This document shows, one piece after another, positions 9,046 through 39,079 of a stretch of DNA of 64,000 nt. The stretch is from Chloroflexia bacterium SDU3-3 (GTDB lineage Bacteria; Chloroflexota; Chloroflexia; Chloroflexales; Roseiflexaceae), in assembly GCA_009268125.1 (NCBI GenBank), contig WBOU01000001.1, forward strand, positions 434,001 to 498,000, given 5' to 3'. The translations under genes were made by a program, and so were the position numbers. Below the pieces are notes generated by a model. That model worked only from the letters and a program-made list of their open reading frames with translations, made no database searches and was not told the DNA's origin. Each line of letters starts with the position of its first letter. Position 1 is the stretch's first letter.

Positions 9046-9306
9046 GGCGAGGCTTCCTCCACTTGCAAAAACGTCCTAGCAGGCAGTATACTATTGAAAA
9101 GCAAGCGCCATGCAAAAGTTTTAGGCGTGTTTTAAAAATAATCGTGGAATAGAGCAGCATAGTGCGCTGTGCACACATCCGTTTTTTTAGATATAGTTTG
9201 CATTCTAAAGCATCCTATAGCCCGACAAGCAATGCTTTCGCATACGTATTAAAATGCACCGATATAATTTAGCAAAAGTTCAGACCAAAGAAGTACATCA
9301 CAGCTC

Positions 9307-9334
9307 TTGACAGCCAAATAACACGTGTTATAAT
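9307..9334 (+). promoter_or_regulatory. Consensus promoter with internal LacI-type operator
   Basis: Perfect -35 TTGACA (9307-9312) and perfect -10 TATAAT (9329-9334) with a 16-nt spacer. Overlapping the spacer and the -10 is a 14-bp perfect palindrome, ATAACACGTGTTAT (9318-9331), whose centre ACGT has the CpG-centred symmetry common in LacI-family operators. Binding there would block RNA polymerase, so autoregulation of the LacI gene at 9353 is likely. The remaining gap, 9046-9306, is AT-rich and shows nothing else convincing. Confidence 0.75.
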
Positions 9335-9352
9335 CTACGCGGAGGCCAAACT

Positions 9353-10387: not shown

Positions 10388-10457
10388 ATCTCCCCTTCAG
10401 GCCGCAGACCCCGCCGCCTTGCAGCCCTGACACCCCCGCATGCTGTTGCTCTAGCCC

Positions 10458-10524
10458 GATGGCTTGGATGCCCTGGCGCACCCCCAAGCCATCAACCCCA
10501 ACCCAGCCGCCGCTACGCGGCTGG
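10458..10524 (+). other. Two hairpins in the leader between lacI-type gene and deacetylase-like gene
   Basis: A 10-bp stem (arms 10458-10467 and 10484-10493) is followed by an 8-bp stem (CCAGCCGC 10503-10510 with GCGGCTGG 10517-10524) just before the ribosome-binding site AAGGA at 10532. Neither has a T-tract. They may affect stability or translation of the downstream mRNA. Confidence 0.35.
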
Positions 10525-10541
10525 AGCATGTAAGGATGCAC

Positions 10542-11978: not shown

Positions 11979-11991
11979 AAGGAGACCGCTC

Positions 11992-13353: not shown

Positions 13354-13391
13354 TTTACGACACAAATAATATCACAAACAAACTATTTCGA

Positions 13392-13423
13392 TTGGGTCTT
13401 GGAAGATTTATTCCAAGACCCAA
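13392..13423 (+). terminator. Intrinsic terminator between binding protein and permease genes
   Basis: A perfect 13-bp stem (TTGGGTCTTGGAA 13392-13404 with 13411-13423, 6-nt loop) is followed by CGGCTTTTTT. It lies about 38 nt after the binding-protein stop. Partial termination here is a common way to set binding-protein excess in sugar ABC operons. Confidence 0.85.
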
Positions 13424-13623
13424 CGGCTTTTTTCACAAAATGTATAACGCATTGGTAATGGCACACATATACAATACATAGTTGAGCGGGGCAAAACAGT
13501 TCCGTTTCAGCCTAGCCCAGTATATACCCATGTATTTCTTGGGCAAATTGAACATAAAACGTTCTATTCGCACAACCCCAGCAGACTGGCTCAGGGAGAC
13601 GGCCCTGGCGAAAGAGAGCATTG

Positions 13624-14571
13624 ATGGCATCATATCAACCTGTTCACAAAGTACCCTACGCAGGGCCACAGGGCCTCTCCCAGCGGTGGGCGCGCAGCTT
13701 TCGGCAAAACGCACTTTTCTTCCTGTTTATCTCACCCTGGCTGATCGGTTTCCTAGTCTTCAGCGTCTACCCGCTGCTCTTCTCGATCTGGCTGAGCCTG
13801 TCGAAATGGGACATCATCGGCTCCATTCACTATGTCGGGTTCGAGAACTATCGCACCATCTTCACCGAGGACGACTCGTTCTGGCAGTCGCTCAGGGTCA
13901 CCATCACCTACACCTTCATCAGCGTCCCGCTCAACATGATGGTATCGCTAGGCATCGCGCTGCTGCTCAACCAGAAGATCCGGGGGGTGAAGGTCTGGCG
14001 AACCTTGTTCTACCTGCCCTCGCTGATCAGCGGCGTGGCGGTCTCGCTGATCTGGACATGGGTGTTCAACCCCAACACTGGCATCATCAACCAGGCGCTC
14101 AGCGCCTTCGGCATCAATGGCCCGATGTGGATCTACGACTCCAACTGGGTCATGCCGGCCCTGATCATCATGGGTCTGTGGGGCGCTGGCGGCAACATGA
14201 TGATCCTCATCTCGGGTCTGCAGGGCATCCCCACCGCGCTCTACGAGGCCGCCGAGCTCGACGGTGCCAACGCGGCCCAGCGACTTTGGCATATCACGGT
14301 GCCCATGCTATCGCCGGTGCTGTTCTTTGTGCTCATCCAGAGCGTCATCGGCACATTCCAGACCTTCACCCAGGCCTACGTGATGACCGACGGCGGCCCC
14401 GACAACGCCAGCCTCTTCTATGTGCTCTACCTATTCCGGCATGCCTTTACCTACTTCAACATGGGCTACGCCTCGGCGCTGGCCTGGATACTCTTTCTGA
14501 TCATATTAGCCTGCACATTCGTGCTGATCAAAACACAGGATCGGTGGGTACACTATGAGTCAAAACGCTAA
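13624..14571 (+). CDS. ABC sugar transporter permease, MalF type
   Basis: 315 residues from the ATG at 13624 (a TTG lies one codon upstream, and GAAAGAGAG is the nearest Shine-Dalgarno match). Six membrane helices are visible, beginning with FFLFISPWLIGFLVFSVYPL. The cytoplasmic EAA loop reads EAAELDGANAAQRLWHITVP, which docks on the ATPase. It forms the transmembrane channel with the next gene, whose start overlaps its end by 17 nt. No ATPase gene is nearby; in many monoderm and Chloroflexi operons a shared MsmX/UgpC-type ATPase encoded elsewhere serves several importers. Confidence 0.9.
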   Translation: MASYQPVHKVPYAGPQGLSQRWARSFRQNALFFLFISPWLIGFLVFSVYPLLFSIWLSLSKWDIIGSIHYVGFENYRTIFTEDDSFWQSLRVTITYTFISVPLNMMVSLGIALLLNQKIRGVKVWRTLFYLPSLISGVAVSLIWTWVFNPNTGIINQALSAFGINGPMWIYDSNWVMPALIIMGLWGAGGNMMILISGLQGIPTALYEAAELDGANAAQRLWHITVPMLSPVLFFVLIQSVIGTFQTFTQAYVMTDGGPDNASLFYVLYLFRHAFTYFNMGYASALAWILFLIILACTFVLIKTQDRWVHYESKR

Positions 14572-15427
14572 TATCCGCCCCATGCCCAACGGCCTCGAAT
14601 CACCGATGGCCTCGCAGGGGCAGAAGATCATCACCTATGTGCTCTTGTTTGGCATCGGGACACTGTTCCTCGTCCCATTCTTCTGGATGATCTCGACATC
14701 GCTCAAGACCAGCATCGAGGCCTTTTCCATCCCAATCGAGTGGATACCCGCACGGCCCCACTGGGGTAATTATGTCGATCTGTTTACCACCGTACCGTTT
14801 GCCCAGTTCTTGGTCAACTCGATCGGGATAGCGCTGGTCTCGGTCGTCGGGCAGGTGCTCTCGGGGTCGCTGGTGGCCTATGGGTTCGCACGCCTGAGCG
14901 GGGTTGGCAAGCCCATCTTGTTTGGGCTGCTGCTCAGCACCATGATGCTGCCAAGCCAGGTGACACTCATCCCCTCATTCCTGCTCTTCCGCGAGCTTGG
15001 ATGGTACGACACCTTCGCCCCGCTCACGGTGCCAGCCTGGCTCGGCACTCCCTTCTATATCTTCATGCTGCGGCAGTTCATTATGACCATCCCGCTCGAC
15101 TATGACGATGCCGCGCGAATCGATGGCTGCTCTACGTTTGGGATCTACTGGCGGATCATCCTGCCGATGCTGGTGCCCGCGCTGATCACGGTCAGCGTCA
15201 TGGTCTTTATTGGGTCGTGGAACGATTTTATGGGGCCGCTGATCTACCTCAGCTCGATTGAAAACTTTACCGTTGCGCTGGGATTGAATCTCTTTCGTAC
15301 ACAATATACACAATATTGGAACTTGACAATGGCGGCATCGGTGATATCGCTCATTCCCTGTCTGATCATTTTCTTCTCGGCTCAAAAGTTCTTGATCCAA
15401 GGTTTTGTTGTTGATGGATTAAAATAG
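14555..15427 (+). CDS. ABC sugar transporter permease, MalG type
   Basis: 290 residues. The start overlaps the end of the MalF-type gene by 17 nt, so translation is probably coupled. Six membrane helices are visible from IITYVLLFGIGTLFLVPFFW to SLIPCLIIFFSAQKFLIQGF. The EAA-type loop is DDAARIDGCSTFGIYWRIIL. Like other MalG proteins it ends with a short QGFVVDGLK tail. It completes the carbohydrate uptake channel and is followed by a very strong terminator. Confidence 0.9.
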   Translation: MSQNANIRPMPNGLESPMASQGQKIITYVLLFGIGTLFLVPFFWMISTSLKTSIEAFSIPIEWIPARPHWGNYVDLFTTVPFAQFLVNSIGIALVSVVGQVLSGSLVAYGFARLSGVGKPILFGLLLSTMMLPSQVTLIPSFLLFRELGWYDTFAPLTVPAWLGTPFYIFMLRQFIMTIPLDYDDAARIDGCSTFGIYWRIILPMLVPALITVSVMVFIGSWNDFMGPLIYLSSIENFTVALGLNLFRTQYTQYWNLTMAASVISLIPCLIIFFSAQKFLIQGFVVDGLK

Positions 15428-15440
15428 CGCTTTCTAACGC

Positions 15441-15490
15441 CAAAAAGCCGAGGCCCTGGCTCCAGTTGGAGCCAGGGCCTCGGCTTTTTG
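15441..15490 (+). terminator. Strong intrinsic terminator after the permease operon
   Basis: A 24-bp perfect inverted repeat (15441-15464 with 15467-15490) begins CAAAAAGCC and ends GGCTTTTTG, giving a long stem with its own U-tract. It lies 14 nt after the permease stop and should work in both directions. Confidence 0.9.
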
Positions 15491-15952
15491 CGGCCAGCGA
15501 GCGTGTCGCCTGCGCTAGCACAGCGCGATCTTCTCGACGCATAAGTTAAAATATCTATACCGATGATCTGCCATTTAGGTAACGGGTCTAAACGCTCTGT
15601 TACTATATAGTAACGGAGGCATGACATACTGGCCGTGTTGCGAAAGCACTTGACCAATTGTAGCGAACCAGCGCCAAGCGACCAAGCTCCTTGGCCATCG
15701 CAGCGCCTCACAGTTCCTTTCAGACAATCGCAATATTTATTCACGGTTTCGATCACTTATCTCATCTTTTTTCTGGAATCTGGCATAATTTGCATCAATA
15801 CAGTTAATAAATGCTGTTATTCTGCAGATAATACCAGAAACCAACAAAACACAGCGTTTTGGTTGAGTGAATAGCTCACACCATTGGGTTAATATACCCA
15901 AAAAAGGATCTTTCGGAATTCGATCACGCTTTGCAAACATTCAGAGAGGTTT
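15491..15952 (+). promoter_or_regulatory. AT-rich leader of the GH9 gene with a 16-bp perfect palindrome
   Basis: No gene is apparent in this 460-bp stretch. GTTACTATATAGTAAC (15599-15614) is a perfect palindrome and a plausible regulator site. It differs from the palindrome in the LacI promoter, so a separate regulator may act here. The remainder, 15730-15900, is AT-rich with several TAATA-type hexamers, none paired with a convincing -35. Confidence 0.4.
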
Positions 15953-15955
15953 ATG

Positions 15956-18898
15956 ATGGGAGCATGCCTAAAGACAATTCTCGTCCGCTTCTGGCTGATT
16001 GTCGGTATTATCGCGATGACCCTGGATCCATTGTCGGCTGCCGCGCACCCCCGAGAAGCAAACAGCACCACGATCCAGGTGGTCGCATCCCTTGCTGGCT
16101 ATAGCAAGAAAGACATCAAGATCGGCTTCGTGATCAGCCCCTCACGCCTCAGCGACGAGACCTTCCAGGTATACAAAGAAAACCATCGCCTAGCCACCGG
16201 TGCGCTGGAATACACGGGCATCACCTGGGGCAAGCATGTCTACAAGATCACCTTCACATCCATCCAGAAGACCGGCAACAGCTTCACGCTCCGATCCAAT
16301 GGCGCCAGCTCGTCACCCTTCCCCATCCAGGCCAACGTCTGGGAGCAGTACCTCGACGAGATGACCGCCTTCTACCGCGTACAGCGCGCCAATGTGGACA
16401 CCCAAAGCGCCCTGCCGCCGAACTATACCAACACGCCACTTTCTGCAAAGGGCTACCACCAGGCAGGCCACCTAGACGACGCCGCCTCGCCCGACCGCAC
16501 GCAGCACTACGACCTCACCGGCGGCTGGTATGATGCCGGTGATTATGGCAAGTATGGCGGCAACCAGTGGGTCGGCGGTATGATCGCTCTCTCCTACCTG
16601 CGCCACGCCAACGCCAAAGAGGTGCAGTTCGACCACGACCACAACGGCACCCCCGACCTGCTCGACGAGGCCAAGGTCGGCGCACTCTACGCGATGAAGT
16701 TTGTCGATACCTTCGGCGGCGCCGTGTACAACATCGCCAACAACGCAGGCTTCGACCACCCCGAGAAGACCACCGACAATATCGTGGGCACAGCCGATGA
16801 CCGCACTATCGGCGAGCTGAGCATCGGCGGGTCGGCCAAGGCCGCTGGTATGCTGGCCGCCACCGCGCGGGCCTTCCACAAGGCCAAGGTCGACCCCAGC
16901 TTCGCCGACGCCGCCGCCCAGCGCGCCGTGATCGCCTACAACTACGCCTATGTCAACCAGCTACAGAACGAAGGGTCGTACGAGGCTATCGGCGGGCTTC
17001 CTAACAGCCTGCTGTGGGCCGAGGTTGAGCTCTACCTGCTGACCAAAGAGCAGATCTACAAGGACCGAGCGATCAGCCGCATCAACGAGCTGACCAAGGA
17101 GGACCTGCGCGCCACCAACTACTGGGATCTGCGCCCGCTGTCGCTGGTCGAGTTCTACCCCGAGGCGAGCCTCGTCCAGAAGGTCCGCATCCGCCTGCTG
17201 TTGCGTTCGCGCGTCGAGTACTTCATCTCGATGGCCGATGACACGCCCTACGGTGTGCTGGATGAGTTCACCAACTTTGGCGTGAACGAGGCCCATATGT
17301 CCTACATCGGCGACCTGATGCGCTACTACGAGCTGTTCCAGGATCCCTCGGTGCTACGCGCGGCCAAGAAAGGCGTCTACTGGATCTATGGCGCAAACCC
17401 GTGGAACATCAGCTGGGTGTCGGGCATCGGCGCGAACTCGGTGAAGTACCTGCACACCCGTCTGGACGAGCAGGCCTACGACCACGCCCTGGCTGGCATC
17501 ACCATCCCCGGCGCGCTAGTGAGCGGCCCCAATATCAAGGATACCAAAGACAAATACAGCGTCAGCCCCTGGTACGAGGATCGCCCGCTATGGCAGGATG
17601 ACGCGCAGCAGTGGCGCTACAACGAGTATAGCATCAGCATCCAGGTGAACCTGCTGTACACCATGGTGGCCCTGGCGGCAACTAACTCGAACCCGCAGGG
17701 GACCGGCATCACCCCCATGCAGCTGCCAATCACCAGCCCCCAGATCGGCGATTTCGTGGCGGGCGACGTGCGGGTATTTGTGCAGCCGCAGGGCTACCCC
17801 CTGAGCCTCACCGCCGACGAGGAGCCAATGCAGTGGAAGAACGGCTCCTACTACGCCGACGTGCCGATCGACACCTCGCAGCCCTTCGCCTTCCACCGGA
17901 TCATGGTGCACGGCACCAGCATGCTTGGTGTCGACTCATACAGCGCCATGCACGTGAACACCGCCCCCGACCTGCCCGCGCCCGGCAGCAGCCTGCTCTA
18001 CGATGACTTCAGCGGCAATGGCACCTGGGGCGCGGTGAGCCTGGGCTGGCCCAACTGGTACAACCAGGACGGCGGCACCGGCAGCTTCGAGCAGACCTCG
18101 GTGGATGCGCGCGATGTCGGCGTCTTCAGCCAGAGGCCCGCCTCGGAGAGCTCGCTGGCGAAGTTCGAGCCGTGGAAAGATACCGTGAACGCCTCGGGCT
18201 ACCGCTATATGGAGGTCAGGGTCAAGAACCTGAGCAACACCAACATCCAGGCGCGCTTCTATGCCGAGGGCGGCAGCGGCTACGAGTTCAGCGGCGGCTA
18301 TATCAGCATCCCAACCAGCTGGACCACCCTGCGCTTCGATCTGGATCAGTTCCCCGGCCTCGACAAGAGCAACATCCACATCACGCTGTGGCTGAAGGCT
18401 GGCACCGCCCCTGGTAGCATCGCCATCGACAATATCGCCTACACCAATGAGAATGGCGGCGGCCAGCCGACCCTGACCCAGCTGAGCGTCGAGCCCAAAA
18501 CCGGCACGGAGAACACGAACTTCCAGTTCAGCACCACCTACACCGACCCCGATAACGATAAGCCGTTCGCCGTGCAGATCATCATCGATGGCGTGCTGCA
18601 CGATATGGTGGAGGCCAGCGCCAGCGACACCAACTACCGCGACGGCAAGCTGTATGTCTACGCCACCAAGCTGGTGCCCGGCAGCCACCGCTACGCCATC
18701 CGCACCGCCGACACGTCCACGCCGGTGGTGCTGACACCCCAGCAGGAGTGGCCCCAGGTGTACCCCAGCATCGGGTCGCTGCTGACGCCGCCCAGCGCCG
18801 AAACGCACATCGAATCGGCCCCCACGCCTGCAGATGACACCACCCACGACAGCGAGCTGCTGACGATGGACGCCGGGGTGAGCGCGGCGGACGAGTAG
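15956..18898 (+). CDS. Secreted GH9 endoglucanase-type glycoside hydrolase with C-terminal binding and Ig-like domains
   Basis: 980 residues. Of two adjacent ATG codons the second (15956) is better spaced from AGAGAGG. A signal peptide (about 1-30, FWLIVGIIAMTLDPLSAAAH) is followed by an Ig-like N-terminal cellulase domain (about 38-128, with KIGFVISP and YKITFTSI). The GH9 barrel then runs from about 130 to 585. The catalytic base region is YDLTGGWYDAGDYGKYGGNQ (Asp193, Asp196) and the acid is probably Glu557 in RYNEYSISIQVN. After about 590 come a short Ig-like module, a beta-sandwich carbohydrate-binding-like module (LLYDDFSGNGTWG to SIAIDNIAY) and another Ig-like module. It should cleave beta-1,4-glucan or a related polymer outside the cell, supplying oligosaccharide to the importer upstream. 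Confidence 0.88.
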   Translation: MGACLKTILVRFWLIVGIIAMTLDPLSAAAHPREANSTTIQVVASLAGYSKKDIKIGFVISPSRLSDETFQVYKENHRLATGALEYTGITWGKHVYKITFTSIQKTGNSFTLRSNGASSSPFPIQANVWEQYLDEMTAFYRVQRANVDTQSALPPNYTNTPLSAKGYHQAGHLDDAASPDRTQHYDLTGGWYDAGDYGKYGGNQWVGGMIALSYLRHANAKEVQFDHDHNGTPDLLDEAKVGALYAMKFVDTFGGAVYNIANNAGFDHPEKTTDNIVGTADDRTIGELSIGGSAKAAGMLAATARAFHKAKVDPSFADAAAQRAVIAYNYAYVNQLQNEGSYEAIGGLPNSLLWAEVELYLLTKEQIYKDRAISRINELTKEDLRATNYWDLRPLSLVEFYPEASLVQKVRIRLLLRSRVEYFISMADDTPYGVLDEFTNFGVNEAHMSYIGDLMRYYELFQDPSVLRAAKKGVYWIYGANPWNISWVSGIGANSVKYLHTRLDEQAYDHALAGITIPGALVSGPNIKDTKDKYSVSPWYEDRPLWQDDAQQWRYNEYSISIQVNLLYTMVALAATNSNPQGTGITPMQLPITSPQIGDFVAGDVRVFVQPQGYPLSLTADEEPMQWKNGSYYADVPIDTSQPFAFHRIMVHGTSMLGVDSYSAMHVNTAPDLPAPGSSLLYDDFSGNGTWGAVSLGWPNWYNQDGGTGSFEQTSVDARDVGVFSQRPASESSLAKFEPWKDTVNASGYRYMEVRVKNLSNTNIQARFYAEGGSGYEFSGGYISIPTSWTTLRFDLDQFPGLDKSNIHITLWLKAGTAPGSIAIDNIAYTNENGGGQPTLTQLSVEPKTGTENTNFQFSTTYTDPDNDKPFAVQIIIDGVLHDMVEASASDTNYRDGKLYVYATKLVPGSHRYAIRTADTSTPVVLTPQQEWPQVYPSIGSLLTPPSAETHIESAPTPADDTTHDSELLTMDAGVSAADE

Positions 18899-22566: not shown

Positions 22567-22750
22567 GTGACTACTCCCACGGGTAACCCCGTGGGCTTCT
22601 AGGGACTCGCACCCAGGCATTGTAGTCCCAATGCCAATATGTTTATCGCGGCGTTCTCGTCTCTATCGAGCACAAGACCGCATACAGGACAAGAATGCAC
22701 ACGAACGCTCAAATCTTTCTCGACCAACTGCCCGCACCGGCTACAGCGCT
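22567..22750 (-). ncRNA. Predicted omega RNA overlapping the tnpB 3' end and right end
   Basis: In characterised TnpB systems the guide RNA scaffold is made from the 3' end of tnpB through the right end, and the guide is the sequence just past the element. Here the 3' end of tnpB, the hairpin CCCACGGG/CCCGTGGG and the GTAGTCAC terminus fit that layout. The bases next to the end on the minus strand (AATACTATACTCC...) would be the guide. The extent is inferred from the family and not visible directly. Confidence 0.4.
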
Positions 22751-23708
22751 TGCTGGTGTTGCGTGGATCAACCAGTACGACGCGACGGCCAGCTTCTTCC
22801 GCTTTGCTCGTCGTGACCAGGACAAATTGATTCCACGCCGCATCTGCAATGCTTTTCGCCAGGCAGTGGTTCGTGAGCATTCCGTTGGTATTCACGTCCT
22901 CAAAAGCCAGGATACCGAAACGGTTGACCAGCTTCCGGCCTTCCTGATGGGCAAAGTTCGAGCGGCAGTTCGCTATCCGCTCATGCACACGACCGACAAT
23001 CTTCCGACGCTTCGTTCGTTCTGGTGTGCCTTTCTCCGCTTTCGAGAGCTTCCGCTGAACCTTCGCAAGTTCCTTCTCTTTTACTCGAAAGAAGCGCGGG
23101 TTGGCGATCTTCTCACCATTCGACAGGGTAGCGAACGAAGCGAGGCCAACATCGACGCCAACCGCGCTCTTGTCTGGTGCAAGCGGTCGTGGCGATGTTT
23201 CAACACTCAAGCTGGCATACCATTTCCCTGTAGCTGCGCGTCGGATCGTGACCGTCTTGATCGGTCCTTCGACTGGACGATGCAAGATGACGTTGACCGA
23301 GCCGATCTTGCTCAGGATGAGCGTGTTCCCTTGCAGTCGTACGCCGTTCCCATACTGCGGATAGGTGAGACTGTCATAGCGCCCAAAGCCCTTAAAGCGC
23401 GGATAGCCAACGTCCGATTCGCCCGCTTTGACGCGACGAAAGAACGCTTTGAACGCCAGATCAACACGTACCTGAACGTTCTGCAAGACCTGAGAATGGA
23501 CCCGTTTGAGCGACGGGCGATCAGCTTTCCAGGCCGGAAGGAGGGATTGCGTATCGTACAACCCAAGCGACTCCTGACGCTGCTCCCACGCCTCACGGCG
23601 AGCGGTAAGCGTCTGGTTATAGACAAAGCGACATTCCTCAAGCATCGTGGTGAGGATGTGCTGTTGTCCCCTTGTCGGACTGATTCGGTAGTTGTACGCT
23701 TTACGCAT
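22599..23708 (-). CDS. tnpB: TnpB, RNA-guided endonuclease of IS200/IS605-family element
   Basis: 369 residues from MRKAYNYRIS, the usual TnpB beginning; a longer frame to 23747 adds 13 unrelated residues. The N-terminal helix-turn-helix region (about 1-60) and the beta-barrel region (about 100-175) precede a RuvC-like nuclease: GVDVGLASF (Asp186), ILAFEDVN (Glu270) and DRDENAAINI (Asp350). A zinc finger of four Cys (322, 325, 340, 343) is inserted before the last motif. All catalytic and zinc residues are intact, so the protein is probably active. It should cut DNA next to a target motif using the RNA from its own 3' end, helping the element survive excision. Length is normal for the family. 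Confidence 0.9.
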   Translation of the reverse strand: MRKAYNYRISPTRGQQHILTTMLEECRFVYNQTLTARREAWEQRQESLGLYDTQSLLPAWKADRPSLKRVHSQVLQNVQVRVDLAFKAFFRRVKAGESDVGYPRFKGFGRYDSLTYPQYGNGVRLQGNTLILSKIGSVNVILHRPVEGPIKTVTIRRAATGKWYASLSVETSPRPLAPDKSAVGVDVGLASFATLSNGEKIANPRFFRVKEKELAKVQRKLSKAEKGTPERTKRRKIVGRVHERIANCRSNFAHQEGRKLVNRFGILAFEDVNTNGMLTNHCLAKSIADAAWNQFVLVTTSKAEEAGRRVVLVDPRNTSKRCSRCGQLVEKDLSVRVHSCPVCGLVLDRDENAAINILALGLQCLGASP

Positions 23709-23785
23709 ACATTCGTTATAGCACCATTCTGCGTAAACAGCAAACATGTACTATCTCGACTGTGGGCGAAAGCCGCTAAAGCGGC

Positions 23786-27091: not shown

Positions 27092-28003
27092 ATGGCAGAC
27101 AACGCATCATATGAGGCGCTGCTTCCCGCCGCGATGGCCGAAAAGGCGATCGCCACCGGCATCAAGAAAGCGCACACCAGCCTCATCAACCTGTGCCTGC
27201 TGGGGATCTTGGCAGGCGCTTTTATTGCCTTTGGCGCGATGTTCGCCACCACTATTACCGCAGGGGCCAAGGATGTGCTGCCGTTTGGCATCGTGAAGGT
27301 GCTGATGGGGCTGGCATTCAGCGTAGGGCTCGTGCTGGTGATCGTGGGCGGCGGCGAGCTGTTCACCGGCAACACCCTGATGAGCATGGCCTTCGCCAGC
27401 GGCAAGGTGAGCCTGGGCGAGGTGCTGCGCAACTGGGTGGTGGTCTACACCAGCAATTTCGTGGGGTCGATCCTGGTGGCGCTGCTGGTGTTCTATGGCA
27501 AGCAGCACACCTTCGGCCATGGCGCGATCGGCCTGAACATGCTGAGCATCGCCGAGTCGAAGGCCAACCTTGAGTTTGGCCAGGCGGTGGCGCTGGGCGT
27601 GCTGTGCAACTTTGCGGTGTGCATGGCGGTGTGGCTGTGCTACAGCTGCCGCACGACCACCGACCGCATCACGGCGATCATCCTGCCGATCACGGCCTTT
27701 GTGGCCGCCGGGTTCGAGCACAGCGTGGCCAACATGTACTTCATCCCCATGGGTCTGCTGGTAAAGGGCGGCGGCGGCGAGGCGTTCTTCGAGGAGATCC
27801 AGAAGCACCCCGCCGACTTCCCGCACATCACCTGGGGCAACTTCCTGCTGGGCAATCTGCTGCCGGTGACGATCGGCAATATTATCGGCGGGTCGGTGTG
27901 CGTGGGCCTGATCTACTGGGCAGTCTACATCCGGCCCGGCCTAGCCGAGCGGCCCGCGCCCAGCTACCGCGCGGCGGGGCACAGCAGGTCGGCCAACGAC
28001 TGA
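27092..28003 (+). CDS. Formate/nitrite transporter (FNT) family channel
   Basis: 303 residues from the ATG at 27092 (MADNASYEALLPAAMAEKAI). Six membrane helices are visible, with the FNT features GLAFSVGLVLVIVGGGELFTGNT, GVLCNFAVCMAVWL and FEHSVANMYFIPMGLL. The central His of FEHSVANMY is the conserved pore residue. FNT pentamers move formate, nitrite or similar small anions across the cytoplasmic membrane. No formate lyase, nitrite reductase or hydrogenase gene is near, so the substrate stays open. The last 40 nt of the gene overlap the end of a convergent HAD gene. Confidence 0.9.
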   Translation: MADNASYEALLPAAMAEKAIATGIKKAHTSLINLCLLGILAGAFIAFGAMFATTITAGAKDVLPFGIVKVLMGLAFSVGLVLVIVGGGELFTGNTLMSMAFASGKVSLGEVLRNWVVVYTSNFVGSILVALLVFYGKQHTFGHGAIGLNMLSIAESKANLEFGQAVALGVLCNFAVCMAVWLCYSCRTTTDRITAIILPITAFVAAGFEHSVANMYFIPMGLLVKGGGGEAFFEEIQKHPADFPHITWGNFLLGNLLPVTIGNIIGGSVCVGLIYWAVYIRPGLAERPAPSYRAAGHSRSAND

Positions 28004-28668
28004 AGGTCGGGCACGGTGATGTCGGGGCGAGCCTCGGCGGGCAGCGTCGCGCCGAAGCCGGGGTTCGCCGCGCGCCGGTTGACCCAGGCGGTGTCGAGGC
28101 CCAGCTGCTTGGCGGGCACATGGTCGTGGAACAGGCTCTGCGCCACGTGCAGGATGCGCTGCTGCGGCACCCCGATGCGCTCAAACGCCACGTGGAAGTT
28201 GTTTAGCGAGGGCTTGTAGCTGCCCGCCTGCTGCGCGGTGATCACGTCGGCAAATCGCACCCCCAGCCGCGCGTTCGACAGCGCAAACAGGTCATCATCC
28301 ACATTCGAGATCACCACCAGGCGAAATCGGCTGGCCAGCCGCGCCAGCGCCGCAGGCGAGTCGGGGAAGGCCGGCCAGTCGCCCACCGAGCCTGCGAAGC
28401 GGGCCTGCTCCTCGGCGCTGGGCGCAAAGCCGTAGCGCTGCCCAAAGCCGCGCACGCAGCTGGCCAGCACATCGCGGTAGGCCATGTACGGCCCGGCTTC
28501 GGCGGCGGACTCAAGCTCGGCGAAGAGCTGCAGGGCCTGCTCGCGCTCAAGCGCGACCCCGTGCCGCTGCAGGATGGGCAGCAGCGCGGCGGCGATGCCG
28601 CTCTCCCAGTCGATCAGCGTGCCATAGCAGTCGAACGTCAGCACCTCTTTGGTATCCAGATCTACCAT
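27964..28668 (-). CDS. HAD-superfamily hydrolase, haloacid dehalogenase type II-like
   Basis: 234 residues; ATG preceded by GGGAGG. Motif 1 is LTFDCYGTLIDWESGI (nucleophile Asp13, with Tyr-Gly-Thr as in L-2-haloacid dehalogenases). Motif 2 is LVVISNVDDDL, motif 3 lysine is in AGSYKPSLNNFHVAFE, and motif 4 is truncated to a histidine-rich stretch (LFHDHVPAKQLGLDTAWVNR), where the usual second acidic residue is in part replaced. It is a cytoplasmic hydrolase of a small phosphate or halo-acid. Its 3' end overlaps the FNT gene by 40 nt on the other strand. Confidence 0.8.
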   Translation of the reverse strand: MVDLDTKEVLTFDCYGTLIDWESGIAAALLPILQRHGVALEREQALQLFAELESAAEAGPYMAYRDVLASCVRGFGQRYGFAPSAEEQARFAGSVGDWPAFPDSPAALARLASRFRLVVISNVDDDLFALSNARLGVRFADVITAQQAGSYKPSLNNFHVAFERIGVPQQRILHVAQSLFHDHVPAKQLGLDTAWVNRRAANPGFGATLPAEARPDITVPDLQSLADLLCPAAR

Positions 28669-28738: not shown

Positions 28739-29740
28739 TTAGGCCCGGGCCTTTGGCGCGGCGCTGCGCTGGCGCGCATACTCAAGCGCCGCCTGCGGGG
28801 TGGCTACGGTCTGCACATCGCCGATCGGCAGATCCATCTTGGCCATGGCCATAGCCAAGCTGCCCGACACACCGCAGAGCAGCACATCGGTGCCCAGCAG
28901 CCGCACCGACTGGATCATCTGGATCAGGGCGCTGGCCACCGAGATATCGGCCTCGGTGAGGCCCGAGAGATCCATCACGATCAGCTGCGCGCGCTGCTTG
29001 TAGACCGCATCAAGGATGCGGCGGTTCAGGTGCGAGGCGCGGCGGGCGTCGATATAGCCCAGGATCGGGGCCAGCAGCACGCCATCGGCGATCGGGGTCA
29101 CCGGCGTCTCCAAGGCATCGATCAGATCCAGCATGCGCTTCTGGGCCTCGGCCTGCTGCTGTAGCTCGCGGTTCGCGCCCTCGGCCTCGCGCGAGCGTGC
29201 CTCGGCCACCGCCAGGGCCTCCTCGGCGCGCCGCTGGTTCTGCTGCGAGCTGCGCAGCGCGGTGGTGGTGACCAGCCGGATGACGCAGATCATCGCCAGG
29301 CACGCTATAAAAATCACCACATTCGTAGGCGACACGATCGCGCCCTGCCAGCCGACCCGCAGCCCAAGGCCCAGGAAAATCGCTAGGCCGCAGCCCAAGA
29401 TCCAGCGAAAATCGAGCAGCACCGCCGCCAGCAGTGCGGGTGTGATGATCGCAAGCGACACCTGGTTGACCACAAAGTCGGCTGGGATACCAAAGATCAA
29501 GATGAGCGTGTAGATCGAAATGGTGAGCGGCGGAATGATCGATGCGAGCCAGTTCGCGCGGTAAGCCAGCAGCAGCCCGGTGAAGAGCAGCCCCCCTACA
29601 AGATTCGGCAGAAGATCGATCATGCTGGCACGCTGCAGCAGCGCGGCGACTGTCGCCAGCCACGCCCCCGCCGAGGCAATCGCAAGAAGGCCGATCCCTG
29701 CCTGACGCTGAGTCATTGAAATGTGCATGCCACCGTCCAT
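28739..29740 (-). CDS. Membrane-bound RsbR-like STAS protein
   Basis: 333 residues; the start is uncertain because ATG codons at 29740, 29728 and 29716 all lack a good ribosome-binding site. The N-terminal half (about 10-165) has five or six membrane helices (e.g. LLPNLVGGLLFTGLLLAYRA, LAIITPALLAAVLLDFRWIL). A coiled coil follows (about 175-210, EEALAVAEARSREAEGANRE). The STAS domain (about 215-320) contains TPVTPIADGVLLAPILGYID and LIVMDLSGLTEADISVASAL. In the usual phospho-acceptor site (DxT/S) there is an Ala-Asp-Ile-Ser, so Ser may be the target. It probably transmits a membrane signal into a stressosome-like or anti-sigma network. It resembles the cytoplasmic PAS-STAS protein at 5830 in its STAS domain only. 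Confidence 0.78.
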   Translation of the reverse strand: MDGGMHISMTQRQAGIGLLAIASAGAWLATVAALLQRASMIDLLPNLVGGLLFTGLLLAYRANWLASIIPPLTISIYTLILIFGIPADFVVNQVSLAIITPALLAAVLLDFRWILGCGLAIFLGLGLRVGWQGAIVSPTNVVIFIACLAMICVIRLVTTTALRSSQQNQRRAEEALAVAEARSREAEGANRELQQQAEAQKRMLDLIDALETPVTPIADGVLLAPILGYIDARRASHLNRRILDAVYKQRAQLIVMDLSGLTEADISVASALIQMIQSVRLLGTDVLLCGVSGSLAMAMAKMDLPIGDVQTVATPQAALEYARQRSAAPKARA

Positions 29741-29896: not shown

Positions 29897-31414
29897 TTAC
29901 AGTTCGCCATATCCCGCATCAATCCCAGCGAGCAGAGCGCTCAGCTCGATCACGCGCGAGATGCGCAGCGGGCGATACAGCTCTTTGGCGGCCCAGCAGC
30001 CCCCCAGCTCGGTGCCGCCGCTGCGGTAGTAGGCCGCCATCCACGCAGTGGCGCGGCGCAGCGACTCGTGCCCGGCCACCTCCAGCACACCGGCGCGGGC
30101 GGCGGCTAGCATGCCCACCATACCGTAGGCCGTCTCCTCGGCGTAGGCCGATGTGACGCCCCAGCTGCCATCGGGGTGCTGGTGCGCGATCATGGTCGGC
30201 ACCACTGCTGCGGCATCTTGGGCACGGCCAGCCGCGCAGAGGGCATGCATCGCATGCCCCGTTAGGTATAACCATGAGGCATGCCATTTATCATCAACCC
30301 AGCGGCCATCGTCGCTACGCGCCGCTTCCAGCCGCTGAAACAGCGCGGCGGGGTCGCCGCCCAGCATCGCCTGGGCGTGGGCCGCGTGCACCGTGGCCGA
30401 GAACGAGCGCTGCAGCTCATTGGCGTAGGTCAGGCACCAGCCATCCACCAGGTATGCATCAAGCATCCCAGGGTCAACCGCATGCCCGGCATGCGAGAGC
30501 ACGGCCAGCACCATCGATGTCAGATCGCCATCGGTCGAGAACTCGTCGCTGATGCCCTGGCCAGTGGCGCGCAGGCCCTGGCGCATCGAGTCGATCTGGG
30601 GCTGCAGCGCATCCTGCAGCTCCGGGTGATCGAGCGAGCCAGCCAGCAGCAGGCAGAACATGCTCACCGTCTGCTCGTTGCGGTTGTAGGGCCACACGGT
30701 AGGCACCACGCCGGGGATGTCGAGGCCTGTGGCGTAGGCGGCGGCATCTAGGTAGGCACGCGCCGCCTCGCGCAGGTTGGCGGGGCACTCGCGGTCGGCA
30801 AAGTCGTGGAGCCAGCGCGCGGTGGCTGCCGGGCTATGGCCGATGCATCCAGCCAGATCGAACAGGTGCGCATCCACATCATCGCCCCACGACTCCCACG
30901 AGTGGATGGGCGAGGTAGCCGGGCGCAGGCGTGGCCTCAGGCGGGCGATCAGGTCGCGGCGCTTCTGGCCAAGCGCGGCCAGGCCCTCGTAGGGCTGCCG
31001 GTCGAGCGGCATGCCGTGGCGCTGGGCAAGATCGAGCAGGTGGGGAATAAGCAGCTCGGCGGCCAGCGGTATATCATTTGGCACCGGGCCATGCCAGATC
31101 TGGCTGTGCTGCGCCAAGAAGGCCAGCCCAGACGCGATCCGACGGTGGTCGCTCGGGTCATCCAGATCGTGCAGCGCAAGCAGGGCCGCAAGCGTGGGGG
31201 TATCGCGCGCCCGTGGGATGCGCGGGTCGCCCCAGCCGCCATCGGGCTGCTGCTGGGTACGCAGCCAGGTGTAGGCATCGCGAGGATCGGCGGGGGGAGC
31301 ATACAGCAGCACCAGCGCGGTGTCATACACCGATGGGCCGATCTTGCCGCCCTGGGTGCCAAGCGCTTGGATGTTGCGTCGTAGCTCGTCAAGAAGTTGA
31401 GGGTAGAGTGTCAT
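29897..31414 (-). CDS. Class II terpene (diterpene-type) cyclase
   Basis: 505 residues from MTLYPQLLDELRR; a longer frame to 31483 adds a Cys-rich tail without support. The all-helical prenyltransferase/squalene-cyclase repeats are visible: QQQPDGGWGDPRIPRARDTP (about 54-73), HQHPDGSWGVTSAYAEETAY and KWHASWLYLTGHAMHAL. The length and motifs fit bacterial class II diterpene cyclases, which protonate geranylgeranyl diphosphate and leave the diphosphate on; a related enzyme is known in Herpetosiphon. The catalytic DxDD motif appears as DGDL (Asp295, Asp297) followed by Thr. The middle Asp, the proton donor, is kept and the last is Leu. No prenyltransferase or class I synthase is adjacent, so the gene stands alone between a STAS protein and a glycosyltransferase. 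Confidence 0.8.
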   Translation of the reverse strand: MTLYPQLLDELRRNIQALGTQGGKIGPSVYDTALVLLYAPPADPRDAYTWLRTQQQPDGGWGDPRIPRARDTPTLAALLALHDLDDPSDHRRIASGLAFLAQHSQIWHGPVPNDIPLAAELLIPHLLDLAQRHGMPLDRQPYEGLAALGQKRRDLIARLRPRLRPATSPIHSWESWGDDVDAHLFDLAGCIGHSPAATARWLHDFADRECPANLREAARAYLDAAAYATGLDIPGVVPTVWPYNRNEQTVSMFCLLLAGSLDHPELQDALQPQIDSMRQGLRATGQGISDEFSTDGDLTSMVLAVLSHAGHAVDPGMLDAYLVDGWCLTYANELQRSFSATVHAAHAQAMLGGDPAALFQRLEAARSDDGRWVDDKWHASWLYLTGHAMHALCAAGRAQDAAAVVPTMIAHQHPDGSWGVTSAYAEETAYGMVGMLAAARAGVLEVAGHESLRRATAWMAAYYRSGGTELGGCWAAKELYRPLRISRVIELSALLAGIDAGYGEL

Positions 31415-32048: not shown

Positions 32049-33230
32049 ATGCGCATTGCGATGATGACCGAGACATTCCTGCCCGATGTCAACGGCGTGG
32101 TGACGACGCTGTGTCGGCTGCTCGAACACCTGAACCGGCGCGGCCACGAGGCGCTGGTGTTCGCGCCCGAGGGTTCGCCCAGCAGCTACCAGGGGGCGCA
32201 GATCATCCCCCTGCCCGGCGCGCCGCTGCCGATCTACCGCGACCTGAAGCTGACCCCGCCCCAGCTGGGCATGACGGCGCGGCTGCGGGCGTTCCGGCCC
32301 GACGTGCTGCACCTGGCGGGCACCATGCTGCTCAGCCCGGCGGGCTGCGCCGCCGCCCAGGCGCTGCGCCTGCCGCTGGTCTCGGTCTACCACACCGACT
32401 GGCCCGCCTACGCAGGGCACTACGGCATGGGCTACCTGCGCGACCTGGCCTACCGCTACCTGCGGCTCATCCACTCCTACTGCGCGCTCACGCTCTGCCC
32501 CTCGCGGGCCACCAAAGACGACCTGCGCAGCCACGGATTCCGCCGCCTGCGCGTGTGGGGGCGCGGGGTGGATACCGCGCTGTTCCACCCGCGCCACCGC
32601 AGCGAGGCCTGGCGCAGCGCGGTGGGCGCGCGGCCCGATGAGAACCTGCTGCTCTACGTGGGGCGGATCGCCAACGAGAAGCGGCTCGATCTGCTGGTGG
32701 AGGCGATGGAGGGGCTGGAGCATACGCGCCTGGTGCTGGTGGGCGACGGCCCAGCACGGCCCGAGATCGAGCGGCGGCTGCGGCACCTGCCCGCCCATTT
32801 CACCGGCTACCTGCGCGGCGCCGATCTGGCCACCGCCTACGCCAGCGCCGACATGTTCGTGTTCCCATCCGACACCGAGACCTTTGGCCAGGTCATCCAG
32901 GAGGCCATGGCGTCGGGGCTGCCGGTGGTGGCCGCGCGGGCGGGCGGCGCGCTCGACCTCGTGCGCGACGGCGAGACCGGCGTGCTCTGGCAGCCCGGCG
33001 ACGCGCGCGCCCTGCGCAGCAGCATCGCCCAGCTGGCCCACAGCCAGCCGATGCGCGCCGCGATGGGCGCGGCTGGCCGCGCCGCCGCCGAGCAGCGCTC
33101 GTGGGAGCGCGTGATGGATGAGATGGTGGGCTACTACGAGCGGGCGCAGCGCCACCGCGTGCGCTACGCCCGCCTGCTAGGCGTGGCTGGGTCACGCGGC
33201 CCACTCGCTCAGCGCGGGGCCAGCCTCTAA
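32049..33230 (+). CDS. Glycosyltransferase family 4, mannosyltransferase-like
   Basis: 393 residues. The GT-B fold is clear. The N-terminal half opens with MRIAMMTETFLPDVNGVVTT and contains VYHTDWPAYAGHYGM. The C-terminal half has LLYVGRIANEKRLDLLVEAM, LVLVGDGPARPEIE and FVFPSDTETFGQVIQEAMAS, the EX7E-type donor-binding motif. The start PDVNGVVTTL and HTD form resemble GDP-mannose-dependent alpha-mannosyltransferases (MgtA/PimB type), which mannosylate diacylglycerol or phosphatidylinositol at the inner membrane face. The donor and acceptor are inferred from this resemblance. Its last 39 nt overlap the end of the convergent GH67-like gene. Confidence 0.85.
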   Translation: MRIAMMTETFLPDVNGVVTTLCRLLEHLNRRGHEALVFAPEGSPSSYQGAQIIPLPGAPLPIYRDLKLTPPQLGMTARLRAFRPDVLHLAGTMLLSPAGCAAAQALRLPLVSVYHTDWPAYAGHYGMGYLRDLAYRYLRLIHSYCALTLCPSRATKDDLRSHGFRRLRVWGRGVDTALFHPRHRSEAWRSAVGARPDENLLLYVGRIANEKRLDLLVEAMEGLEHTRLVLVGDGPARPEIERRLRHLPAHFTGYLRGADLATAYASADMFVFPSDTETFGQVIQEAMASGLPVVAARAGGALDLVRDGETGVLWQPGDARALRSSIAQLAHSQPMRAAMGAAGRAAAEQRSWERVMDEMVGYYERAQRHRVRYARLLGVAGSRGPLAQRGASL

Positions 33231-35141
33231 GAAGATCGAGGGCAGCAGAAAGTAGCGCCGGTTGAGCCAGGGCAGCGCCTGGCGCACCAGCCACGGCGCG
33301 GCGGGCAGCAGCGCCAGCAGCGCGGCGGCCCACACCAGCTGCGCTGGGTTGCTGCGGGCGCGCATCACGCCCAGGCCCAGCAGCGCGGCCACCAGCACCT
33401 GGGCCACCGGCGCGCTACGGCGCAGCACGGGCGCGGCGGCCATACGCTGCACCGCCAGCGCAGATGCGCGGGCCTGCGCCCAGGCCATGCGCGGGTGGCG
33501 CCCCAGCGAGACCAGATACGCATCCACCTCGGCAAGCTCCAGCGCGGGGAAGTCGGCGCGCACGCCCCAGGCCTCGCGGTGGGCGCGCAGCACCGCGCGC
33601 GCCTCGCCCGCACGGGCGGTCAGCACATCCCAGCGGGCGCGGTCCTGGGCGTGGGCGGCGGCGAACAGCGGCAGCAGGGTGCGGCGGATGGCCAGCGCCA
33701 CCCCGAACACGCCCGCCATGTAGCGCAGGCTCTCGGCGGCGAAGGCCGCCTGGGGGTGGGCGCTGGCGCAGGCGGCCACAGCCTGTGCGTGCTCGGCCAC
33801 GCGGCGCTGGGCCCGCTCGGCGCGCGCCACCGCCTGCGCGCTATCGCCGGCCAGCGCGGCCAGCAGCGCCCAGACCAGCGGCGCGGCGGTGGGCCGCATC
33901 CACCACACCCACAGCAGCGCGGGCAGGTAGATGCCGCCCATCATCCGCGACTGCACGGCCTGCTGCGGCAGGTACCAGCCATCGCCAAAAAGCTCTGCCG
34001 ACTCCTCGTAGGCGGTGGCGATGCATGGCCCCACATCCGCCCCGAAGCGCTCGACGCACCACGCCTGGATGAGGCCCCCCGTGTCGGCGCTGGGGTCGCG
34101 GGCCAGCGCCGCTGTCACCGCGCTGCTGATCTCGGTCCATAGGCTCCAGCCGCCCTCGCCCAGCGCTGCCGTGCCGCCGCCCCAGCCACCGGTCGCGTTC
34201 CATGCCCACACGCCCGCGAAGCTCGCGCTCGACGCGGCGCGGGCCAGCACGCCCTGGTGCAGCGCCGCAATGCTGTTGGGCACCATGCCGAACAGCTCGT
34301 ACTCGCGGCGGTTCTGCAGCTCGATAATCTGCTGCGGGCCGGGCAGGCCCAGCGTGGGGTTGGGCGGCAGGGTGCGAAAGAAATCGGCGGGGCCGTGCTT
34401 GATCGAGACCAGCAGGCTGGGCGAGCGCATGTCGCCGAACACAGCGCGGTACTGCGCGGGCGACCACAGCAGGTTGCCCAGCTTGCCGATGCCGATTGTC
34501 CATGTGCGCACCACCAGCAGGCGCTGCGCCCGCTCGCACACCGGCAGCAGCCCGCCGATCAGCTCGCGCAGCGCGGCGGGTGTGCGGTAGAGCAGGTGCC
34601 CGGTGTAGCCCGCCGCGTCGTGCGCGCCCCCGGCCTCGCCCACGCGGATGACCAGGCCGCTCACCTGCGGGAAGCGGGCGAACAGCTCCTCGATCGCCCA
34701 GCGGTTCACCTGGGCGATGCGCGGGTTGGCGCGGTGCAGCCGCCCCACATACTGCCGCAGCGGCGGCGTCATCCACTGCATGTCGCTGGTGATGAACACC
34801 TCCATACCCATGGCGGCCAGCGCCGCGAACAGCCGCCCGAAGGCCTCGGCGTAGATGCTGGCGCGGGCGGCGTAGGGGCTGCCCGCCGCATAGGCCGCAG
34901 GCGTGCCCACGAAGCCCACCAGATGCGCCATGTTGTCCATCACCACGCCGGTGTAGCCCTGGCCGCGCAGCGCGCGCGCGTGGGCGATGGCGCGATCCAC
35001 ACCAGCATCCAGCTGGACGCGATCGACATACGGCGGCGCATCAAGGTCCATCTGGTAGAACGGCAGGCTCGACCAGTTGCGAAAGGGCTTGGCCGTGTCG
35101 TAGAATGGGCCGCTCAGGTCGGCCAGGCAGCGACTGCTCAT
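33192..35141 (-). CDS. GH67-like (alpha-glucuronidase superfamily) protein with C-terminal membrane segments
   Basis: 649 residues; ATG preceded by GGAG. The central part carries alpha-glucuronidase-like elements: SLLVSIKHGPADFFRTLPPN, IELQNRREYELFGMVP and VWAWNATGGWGGG. They match the layout KxGPxDFxxREP...ELQxxxEYxG of GH67 enzymes. The N-terminal part (NWSSLPFYQMDL, GYTGVVMDNMAHLVGF) looks like the start of the same barrel. From about residue 575 come two hydrophobic segments (VLVAALLGLGVM and LVWAAALLALLPAAPWL) that would anchor it to the membrane, which is not usual for GH67. No signal peptide is seen, so topology is unclear. No experimental relative is known to me. Function is inferred. 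Confidence 0.55.
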   Translation of the reverse strand: MSSRCLADLSGPFYDTAKPFRNWSSLPFYQMDLDAPPYVDRVQLDAGVDRAIAHARALRGQGYTGVVMDNMAHLVGFVGTPAAYAAGSPYAARASIYAEAFGRLFAALAAMGMEVFITSDMQWMTPPLRQYVGRLHRANPRIAQVNRWAIEELFARFPQVSGLVIRVGEAGGAHDAAGYTGHLLYRTPAALRELIGGLLPVCERAQRLLVVRTWTIGIGKLGNLLWSPAQYRAVFGDMRSPSLLVSIKHGPADFFRTLPPNPTLGLPGPQQIIELQNRREYELFGMVPNSIAALHQGVLARAASSASFAGVWAWNATGGWGGGTAALGEGGWSLWTEISSAVTAALARDPSADTGGLIQAWCVERFGADVGPCIATAYEESAELFGDGWYLPQQAVQSRMMGGIYLPALLWVWWMRPTAAPLVWALLAALAGDSAQAVARAERAQRRVAEHAQAVAACASAHPQAAFAAESLRYMAGVFGVALAIRRTLLPLFAAAHAQDRARWDVLTARAGEARAVLRAHREAWGVRADFPALELAEVDAYLVSLGRHPRMAWAQARASALAVQRMAAAPVLRRSAPVAQVLVAALLGLGVMRARSNPAQLVWAAALLALLPAAPWLVRQALPWLNRRYFLLPSIFLEAGPALSEWAA

Positions 35142-37838: not shown

Positions 37839-38099
37839 CTACCGCCGATAGCGCTCCTCAAACGCCTGCTCGACGATCCGGGCTGGGTCGTGGCCCAGCC
37901 GCGTGAGCGCGGCCTCCAGCGTCTCGATATGCCACCACGGGCAGCTCGGGTCGTCGCACGGCACATCGGGGTCGGCCTGGTGCTCGAACTCTAGGTGGAA
38001 GCACAGCCAGTGCATGTGCTCGAACAGCTCATACTGGTCGGCCTTCGCCGTCACGGGCTGATGGCAGCGCACGCAGATCAGCGGCTCGGGTGTGGTCAT
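37839..38099 (-). CDS. Small Cys/His-rich protein of unknown function, copy A
   Basis: 86 residues, ATG preceded by GAAGGGA. It is about two-thirds identical to the next gene upstream on the same strand. Possible metal ligands are regularly placed: Cys9-x2-Cys12 (ICVRC), His28/His30-x2-Cys33 (HMHWLC), His35, His40 and Cys48-x4-Cys53 (PCDDPSCPWW). This looks like a zinc-ribbon or treble-clef-like protein. I do not recognise a named family. The last third is a helical segment (LEAALTRLGHDPARIVEQAF). Tandem duplication indicates local expansion. Confidence 0.7.
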   Translation of the reverse strand: MTTPEPLICVRCHQPVTAKADQYELFEHMHWLCFHLEFEHQADPDVPCDDPSCPWWHIETLEAALTRLGHDPARIVEQAFEERYRR

Positions 38100-38174
38100 T
38101 GTTGGTGTCCCTTCTCAGCTCACGTGATGGTGGAAATCTACTGCATCCCCGAGGGCGTGGGAAGCCTAGCACCC

Positions 38175-38435
38175 CTATAGCTGCCAGCGCTCCTTCATAG
38201 CCTGCTCGATGATCAGCTGCGGGTCGTGGCCCAGCCGCGTGAGCGCGGCACGCAGCGCCGCGAGCCGCCACCACGGGCAGATCGGCTCGTCGCACGGCAC
38301 GTCGGGGTCGGCGTGGTGCTCGAACTCCAGGTGGTAGCACAGCCAGTGCATGCGCTCAAAATCCTCGTAGTCCTCGGGGTGGGCCGTCACCGGCTGCTGG
38401 CAGCGCGCGCAGATTAGCGGCTCGGATGTGGTCAT
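38175..38435 (-). CDS. Small Cys/His-rich protein of unknown function, copy B
   Basis: 86 residues from MTTSEPLICARCQQPVTAHP; GAAGGAA lies 8 nt upstream, and the longer frame to 38549 is dropped. All the Cys and His positions of copy A are kept (CxxC at 9-12, HWLC, CDEPICPWW). The same length and the same start (MTTxEPLIC) show that it arose by tandem duplication. Both genes have separate upstream regions of about 75-110 bp, so each may carry its own promoter. Function unknown; nucleic-acid or protein binding through zinc is a guess. Confidence 0.72.
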   Translation of the reverse strand: MTTSEPLICARCQQPVTAHPEDYEDFERMHWLCYHLEFEHHADPDVPCDEPICPWWRLAALRAALTRLGHDPQLIIEQAMKERWQL

Positions 38436-38548
38436 CGTTGGGGTTCCTTCTCTTATTGCAAGAAGACCGCAATATGATACCATAGCGCGCAGGCCGCTAT
38501 GGCGGGAAGACGCGCGACCATCTGAGTCTGAGTAGAGTAAAGGCAGCA

Positions 38549-39079
38549 ATGGAGATAACCTACCGCATTCAAACCACCGACATTTTCGACTTCAAGATGT
38601 ATTGCTATCGTCAGTTTCCAAATCTTCGAAAACAGCTCTTTGGCATCCGTATTGTCCTACCCATGATTCTACTTTCCATCCTAGCTCTCTATGTAGTAGA
38701 AAGTGGTATACCTGCTTTCCAGCTCCTCTGGATCAGTGTGCTAATCGTAACACTCTACATCATCACATTTCCATTGCTCTACCGTATCGCTCTTTGGATC
38801 AGCATAAGCATCACTCTATGGCCTTCCAAAAATGCTAAAGCTACCCTGCATTTCGAGGAGAGAGGGGTCAGCATTATTATGCCTGAGAGAACTACCACCT
38901 TTGACTGGGAAATCATCCGACGTATCGTGCAAACAAAAACCTGCTACTTTCTCTTCTATGCACCAACCAACGCTATTGTGATACCCAAACATGCATTTGC
39001 CAGCCCAGCTGAAATGGATCATGTGCTCGCATTCATCGACGAGTGCCGCATCAAAATCGCTGAGGCACCAGATGTCTGA
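38549..39079 (+). CDS. YcxB-like membrane protein
   Basis: 176 residues. Two membrane helices (about 35-55 and 58-80, VLPMILLSILALYVVESGIP, LLWISVLIVTLYIITFPLLY) precede a soluble domain ending FDWEIIRRIVQTKTCYFLFY and AIVIPKHAFASPAEMDHVLA. That is the pattern of the C-terminal YcxB-like domain (PF14317: DWxxIxxIxE...IPKRAF). Function is unknown. Codon use is clearly AT-richer than in the neighbours (TTT, ATA, CTA, AGA are frequent), which suggests recent acquisition. ATG follows AAAGG. Confidence 0.75.
   Translation: MEITYRIQTTDIFDFKMYCYRQFPNLRKQLFGIRIVLPMILLSILALYVVESGIPAFQLLWISVLIVTLYIITFPLLYRIALWISISITLWPSKNAKATLHFEERGVSIIMPERTTTFDWEIIRRIVQTKTCYFLFYAPTNAIVIPKHAFASPAEMDHVLAFIDECRIKIAEAPDV

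Follow-up and report, generated by a model that had tools for sequence, protein, structure and literature searches.

The solved enzyme that best matches the fold of the cyclase described here is Rv3377c (6vpt), a halimadienyl (tuberculosinyl) diphosphate synthase, whose partner Rv3378c is encoded next to it. In the fourth place of the DxDD motif Rv3377c has Thr (DCDT). Leu and Ile are unable to form hydrogen bonds, as Thr and Asn can. The cyclase of Herpetosiphon aurantiacus (locus L047) is by gene order presumably Haur_2145, that order reportedly being the one given by Nakano 2015, and its product is probably kolavenyl diphosphate.

In Tpn2 (7xkx), a terpentedienyl diphosphate synthase, D296 is described as the general acid, H342 as the residue activating it and K383 as the diphosphate-binding Lys, and one further residue decides between product skeletons (PMC9814783). 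A review describes the DxDD residues of Arabidopsis CPS as cooperating as the acid, so that the loss of one Asp could cost much activity (PMC11795633). Nevertheless, Thr in the fourth place is reported to be functional in drimenol synthases (DxDTT), and AsDMS, one such enzyme, is active, with the middle Asp essential (PMC9128629). A transferase gene closely located to Rv3377c is mentioned in PMC7321100. Our literature searches found no DGDL or DGDI class II cyclase, no assay of one and no cyclase-STAS pair.

Fold and catalytic residues of the SDU3-3 cyclase

The DNA analyzed, called the window below, is a 64,000-nt stretch of Chloroflexia bacterium SDU3-3 (GCA_009268125.1; contig WBOU01000001.1, positions 434,001-498,000, forward strand). 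Across 29897-31414 the plus strand contains stops, and the minus strand is open for 505 aa from an ATG start, with an in-frame GTG upstream at 31483. These coordinates agree with the original prediction, which gave no strand and which had called the product a class II cyclase, an assignment borne out by the sequence profile, the fold and the retained catalytic residues. Pfam SQHop_cyclase_C matched at E 7.7e-06, slightly short of its gathering score, and phmmer retrieved 6vpt at E 2.7e-24. Scoring 21.5 bits against the NCBIfam hopene cyclase cut-off of 431.1, the protein falls outside the squalene-hopene cyclases.

An AlphaFold model built from 41 aligned sequences was confident (mean pLDDT 93.6) and matched solved bacterial class II enzymes from end to end. 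The top matches by Foldseek and VIA-align were 6vpt (VIA Z 40.9, 460 residues, 25% identity), PtmT2 (5bp8; Z 38.0, 463 residues) and Tpn2 (Z 37.8, 448 residues). The predicted beta-gamma double alpha-barrel, the fold of the superfamily, spans the whole chain. Judged from sequence and model together, the gene is a genuine class II (type II) terpene cyclase.

The motif reads D295-G-D297-L298-T299 (30518-30532, minus strand), established from both the codons and the alignment columns: GAT (30532-30530) for D295, GGC for G296, GAT (30526-30524) for D297, CTG (30523-30521) for L298 and ACA for T299. Because a change from GAT or GAC to CTG requires three base changes, a single-base sequencing error is excluded for L298. 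This motif had been predicted with the same residue numbering, and relatives read DGDDT in the same columns. We found no alternative acidic motif at the DxDD columns in any alignment; DGDL always sat on the DGDD of relatives, and on the DCDT of 6vpt. The middle Asp, D297, the expected general acid, is retained as predicted, with Asp at this position and at 295 in 63 of 63 non-redundant rows. The enzyme therefore has the central Asp of the Asp-rich motif that marks the class II superfamily and, with L298 in the fourth place, is a variant outside the strict DxDD consensus.

The columns of the activating His and the diphosphate-binding Lys hold H343 (30386-30388, minus strand) and K376 (30287-30289, minus strand; Lys in 61 of 63 rows), so that D296, H342 and K383 of Tpn2 correspond to D297, H343 and K376. 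Tpn2 and PtmT2 thus resemble the SDU3-3 cyclase in fold, general acid, His and Lys, and differ in reading DGDD and DSDD, respectively. At the product-steering position, residue 476 is Ala, as in Rv3377c, whereas the equivalent is Gly in Tpn2 and Asp in PtmT2. Rv3377c also shares the lack of the fourth Asp and a Tyr four residues beyond this Ala, although it has Thr rather than Leu in the fourth place and is only 25% identical. Haur_2145 is 39% identical and falls in the same family in trees, a group to which the SDU3-3 cyclase belongs, but it reads DGDD and has Arg in place of H343 and Asn at 476. AsDMS likewise has its fourth Asp replaced; unlike the SDU3-3 cyclase it is a HAD fusion, uses FPP and carries a Thr able to hydrogen-bond.

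Arg occupies column 343 in 14 of the 41 rows of the larger tree alignment, the H. aurantiacus enzyme included. Thirteen of these rows have Asp in the fourth place and one has Thr, while all nine rows with Ile or Leu there have His at 343; as the rows are related, this is only a hint of covariation between the two positions.

Distribution, descent and selection of the fourth residue

Replacement of the fourth Asp is not confined to SDU3-3. At column 298, Asp is retained in 49 of the 63 non-redundant rows; the other 14 have Ile (4), Thr (4), Asn (2), Gly (2), Leu (1) or Met (1). One of the four Thr rows is the odd row L070.

We also searched 76 genomes of the Archangium family, 11 of which had cyclase relatives. 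The 22 loci recovered are not all distinct: in some cases two loci are parts of a single gene, and others duplicate L029 and L030. Among loci near the DGDI type, DGDI was found in L127, L128, L129, L131, L133 and L144/L147, DGDL in L130, and DGDT in L132 and L134. A second cyclase type read DGDD in 8 of 8 loci (L135, L136, L138-L143), and the distant cyclases L137 and L145 read DSDD and DLDD. L146/L148 gave no motif match.

In a tree built with the motif columns removed, the SDU3-3 cyclase and the DGDI enzyme of Oscillochloris sp. ZM17-4 (L031) were sisters (support 100/98), and this pair joined a myxobacterial clade of seven rows, the Archangium-family loci L029, L030 and L129-L133 (support 89/93). 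The fourth residue in the resulting nine-row clade is Ile in six, Leu in two, Thr in one and Asp in none. In earlier trees the joining to the myxobacterial clade was weak (83 SH-aLRT) or unresolved, and an AU test did not reject a single origin of the five hydrophobic-variant rows then known (p-AU 0.298). In the larger tree, a further DGDI enzyme (L034) lay outside the variant clade, giving at least three changes overall, and the terminal branch of the SDU3-3 cyclase was long (0.76). Its identity to L029-L031 is 43-47%.

Since the nearest relative of the SDU3-3 gene is too distant for the purpose, dN/dS was taken from its myxobacterial relatives. Values for their DGD[I/L/T] pairs (0.18-0.40, 9 pairs) resembled those for DGDD pairs (0.17-0.42, 9 pairs), indicating that the non-Asp variant is maintained; the clade, as measured on its myxobacterial members, is under purifying selection. 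In the SDU3-3 cyclase itself, 6 of 75 near-invariant columns are changed, the near-invariant Q34, R37 and L348 among them, compared with a range of 0-15 among the 45 rows examined. Given this count and the low dN/dS of the relatives, we judge a dying gene unlikely. The original prediction had also raised the possibility of lost activity. We found no support for this: a clade spanning two phyla shares the non-Asp residue, its myxobacterial members show low dN/dS, and the catalytic residues are intact. Lost activity is thus unlikely, and the DGDL cyclase looks like a working variant rather than a dead gene, similar changes having been kept in two bacterial phyla. It combines an ordinary fold with a real, maintained variation in a motif taken as diagnostic, and very probably cyclizes linear terpene precursors despite the Leu in its active-site motif.

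Partner enzymes and neighboring genes

The cyclase had been predicted to be an orphan. Within the window this holds, as neither a class I synthase or prenyltransferase nor an Rv3378c-like gene lies beside it, and it differs here from Haur_2145, which has an adjacent Rv3378c-like gene and a methyltransferase. Across the genome it is not an orphan. SDU3-3 has a single Rv3378c-like gene on another contig (G000:C2:251843-252694), one PF19086 class I synthase, which lies beside a second cyclase (DGDD), and four PF00348 prenyl synthase matches.

An Rv3378c-like match was present at 20 of 47 related loci (the L033 query found 19, and a second query alone found L059), and the L033 homologue matches Rv3378c structures at E 4e-10. 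At first sight, loss of the fourth Asp seemed to go with loss of this partner, which was found at none of the four DGDI loci among the 47 and is missing from the SDU3-3 locus; no such gene was found in the genomes of any of the four (L029, L030, L031 and L034). However, this is not a rule, since in L151, a myxobacterial DGDI locus, the cyclase and an Rv3378c-like gene are 2.2 kb apart, as would be expected if the L151 product is a cyclic diphosphate. The surroundings of L031 and L034, with PrsW-like and HisB-like genes, are the same as those of the partner-keeping loci L033, L043 and L045. For PF19086, the L031 and L034 genomes gave no match, and the Archangium genomes of L029 and L030 gave nine and six.

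The next gene downstream of the SDU3-3 cyclase, on the same strand after a 156-bp gap, encodes a 333-aa membrane protein (28739-29740, minus strand) with a hydrophobic N-terminal half (segments within residues 14-163) and a C-terminal STAS domain (Pfam E 1.3e-13). This neighbor, to which the original prediction did not refer, is recurrent: at 9 of 47 related loci (L031, L033, L034, L041, L043, L045, L057, L061 and L071) a STAS homologue is found no more than 1.5 kb from the cyclase, another adjoins the second SDU3-3 cyclase, and the SDU3-3 Rv3378c-like gene is flanked on either side by STAS-type proteins, one of them with an intervening gene. The SDU3-3 genome has at least 36 STAS matches, so that by chance roughly one gene in 80 should have a STAS neighbor (36 x 2 / ~5,800 genes, the gene number being estimated); its presence at 3 of 3 SDU3-3 terpene genes is well above this. 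Nevertheless, a role as a dedicated cyclase partner is not supported, given that the family is large and also widespread among genomes that lack a cyclase, and that its cyclase-linked members form no clade in a STAS tree.

Two further observations concern the STAS family. Six cyclase-linked members (L031, L033, L034, L041, L043 and L045) read DIAGV where most of the family reads D(I/V/L)TG. The Thr of the latter motif is presumably a phosphorylation site, as in RsbR; if so, the DIAGV proteins could not be phosphorylated there. Separately, at 7270-11815 of L102 (G000:C3), three STAS-type proteins surround a divergent polyprenyl synthase (PF00348, 49 bits).

The third gene in the same direction encodes a HAD-like hydrolase (27964-28668, minus strand; Pfam Hydrolase E 6.9e-08), which, from its family, could remove phosphate; it had no match at E 1e-6 in the 48 cyclase loci searched. 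The divergent glycosyltransferase, GT4-type by Pfam, also lacked a match in 48 loci and is therefore not part of a conserved module. Elsewhere in the window, a 382-aa ORF (22599-23747, minus strand), TnpB/OrfB transposon protein-like by eye, has a third-position G+C of 0.61, below its neighbors. A 649-aa ORF (33192-35141, minus strand) has no Pfam match at 0.01. Two adjacent small ORFs (37839-38549, minus strand) share a cysteine-containing ICxRCxQPVTA stretch and are probably a tandem duplicate.

In the myxobacteria the neighbor is a chemoreceptor (MCP) and not a STAS protein. An MCP gene adjoins the cyclase at 7 of 10 loci examined, 7 of 7 with DGD[I/L/T] and 0 of 2 with DGDD; the tenth locus, L153, gave no motif. 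The conserved cyclase-MCP pairs are those of L029 (10001-13373; its MCP matches Pfam MCPsignal), L030, L149, L150, L151, L152 and L154. In Herpetosiphon, upstream of the cyclase lies a BLAST match to the hybrid histidine kinase of the SDU3-3 window. Signaling genes thus accompany the cyclase in three lineages, and a recurrent membrane sensor in this place suggests that the product may be regulated by, or read by, a signaling protein.

Proposed reaction and alternatives

From these observations we infer an activity, a substrate, a product and a user of that product. We consider it quite probable that the SDU3-3 protein is a working class II cyclase whose cyclic prenyl diphosphate is used in trans or dephosphorylated. 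In this proposal the substrate would be a prenyl diphosphate bound by K376, most likely GGPP, and D297, activated by H343, would deliver a proton to its terminal alkene. The fourth Asp, normally the support of the acid, is replaced by Leu, and by Ile, Leu or Thr in the nearest relatives; the variant would work with the His-Asp pair alone. The resulting bicyclic cation would rearrange and then lose a proton, leaving a cyclic prenyl diphosphate. Because residue 476 is Ala, as in halimane-forming 6vpt, a rearranged skeleton of the halimane or clerodane type seems likelier than a plain labdane. The unusual cyclized prenyl diphosphate of the original prediction is possible. The product might then be taken up in trans by the Rv3378c-like enzyme or the class I synthase, or be dephosphorylated.

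Alternatively, loss of the fourth Asp might have ended catalysis, with the fold now serving another purpose, perhaps that of a regulator associated with the STAS membrane protein or with a chemoreceptor. We regard such a pseudoenzyme as improbable. The adjoining membrane signaling genes, STAS in SDU3-3 and MCP at all seven myxobacterial DGD[I/L/T] loci, would suit it, as would the DGDI genomes of L031 and L034, in which neither type of partner searched for was found. However, a regulator would not need D295, D297, H343 and K376, all of which are retained, and STAS genes also occur near DGDD cyclases (L033, L041, L043 and L022), so that this neighbor is no mark of a dead enzyme.

Another set of loci bears on how the cation of a working cyclase might be quenched. 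At 11 of 47 loci, the cyclase has an inosine-uridine nucleoside hydrolase (Pfam IU_nuc_hydro) no more than about 2 kb away. At nine of these, in Chloroflexota and kin (L033, L035, L040, L043, L045, L052, L055, L057 and L065), it occurs together with an Rv3378c-like gene; at the other two (L060 and L072) the cyclase stands at the contig end. Such gene sets point to terpene nucleosides in Chloroflexota. In myxobacteria, L056 (Archangium violaceum Cb vi76; 5284-16001) and L058 (5301-14493) encode MetH, a class I synthase, a DGDD cyclase, a 283-aa protein, a hydrolase and MetE, with a P450 after the cyclase in L056 only. With gene names assigned by match to the published cluster table, their order and sizes are those of sora13, 9, 8, 7, 6, 5 and 4 of the 2-hydroxysorangiadenosine cluster, and Cb vi76 is named as having a similar cluster (PMC7321100). 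The same paper calls sora8 (518 aa) and sora12 (509 aa) eudesmadiene transferases, a role that it proposes, and places sora12 beside a 609-aa sensory transducer and a 387-aa protein (PMC7321100). The counterpart of the proposed transferase in L056 and L058 reads as a class II cyclase with DGDD. In L029 and L030 the DGDI cyclase is grouped with a 430-aa protein and a 605-608-aa MCP in the order 430-aa protein, MCP, cyclase, a trio resembling sora10-12 in order and roughly in length. By this analogy of gene order and length, Sora8 and Sora12 may both be class II cyclases, with Sora12 in the variant clade.

These clusters raise the prospect of a proton-initiated coupling enzyme, in which the cation would be trapped by an outside nucleophile such as adenosine rather than deprotonated, giving a terpene nucleoside or similar compound. 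The DGDD relative in a sorangiadenosine-type cluster, the trio with the DGDI cyclase and the nine loci with a nucleoside hydrolase are consistent with it, but Sora8 and Sora12 are matched by the order and lengths of the genes, their role as transferases is one that the paper proposes, and no nucleoside gene adjoins the SDU3-3 cyclase; for this enzyme we give coupling a slimmer chance than loss of catalysis. It is very improbable that the hydrophobic residue reshapes the pocket floor of an active cyclase for a different substrate, be it FPP, GFPP or a terpene lacking the diphosphate, for although SDU3-3 and L031 read WPYxRNEQ in place of the WPIxRFEQ, or a near match to it, of most relatives, and the related class II folds SsDMS and AsDMS among our structural comparisons act on FPP, K376 is retained as in diphosphate enzymes.

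A bolder reading, to which we attach little probability, is that the DGD[I/L/T] clade of Chloroflexota and Myxococcota forms a separate functional class. A neutral pocket floor would here replace the acidic one, the cation would either be captured by a nucleophile from outside, such as water or a nucleoside, or live long enough to rearrange further, and the product would be read by the adjacent membrane sensor, a STAS protein or chemoreceptor.

DxDD is the motif by which class II cyclases are found and named, and searches or annotation rules that demand it would discard the DGD[I/L/T] clade or call it dead. With Ile, Leu or Thr in the fourth place and the rest retained, the clade is a natural test of the role of the fourth Asp.
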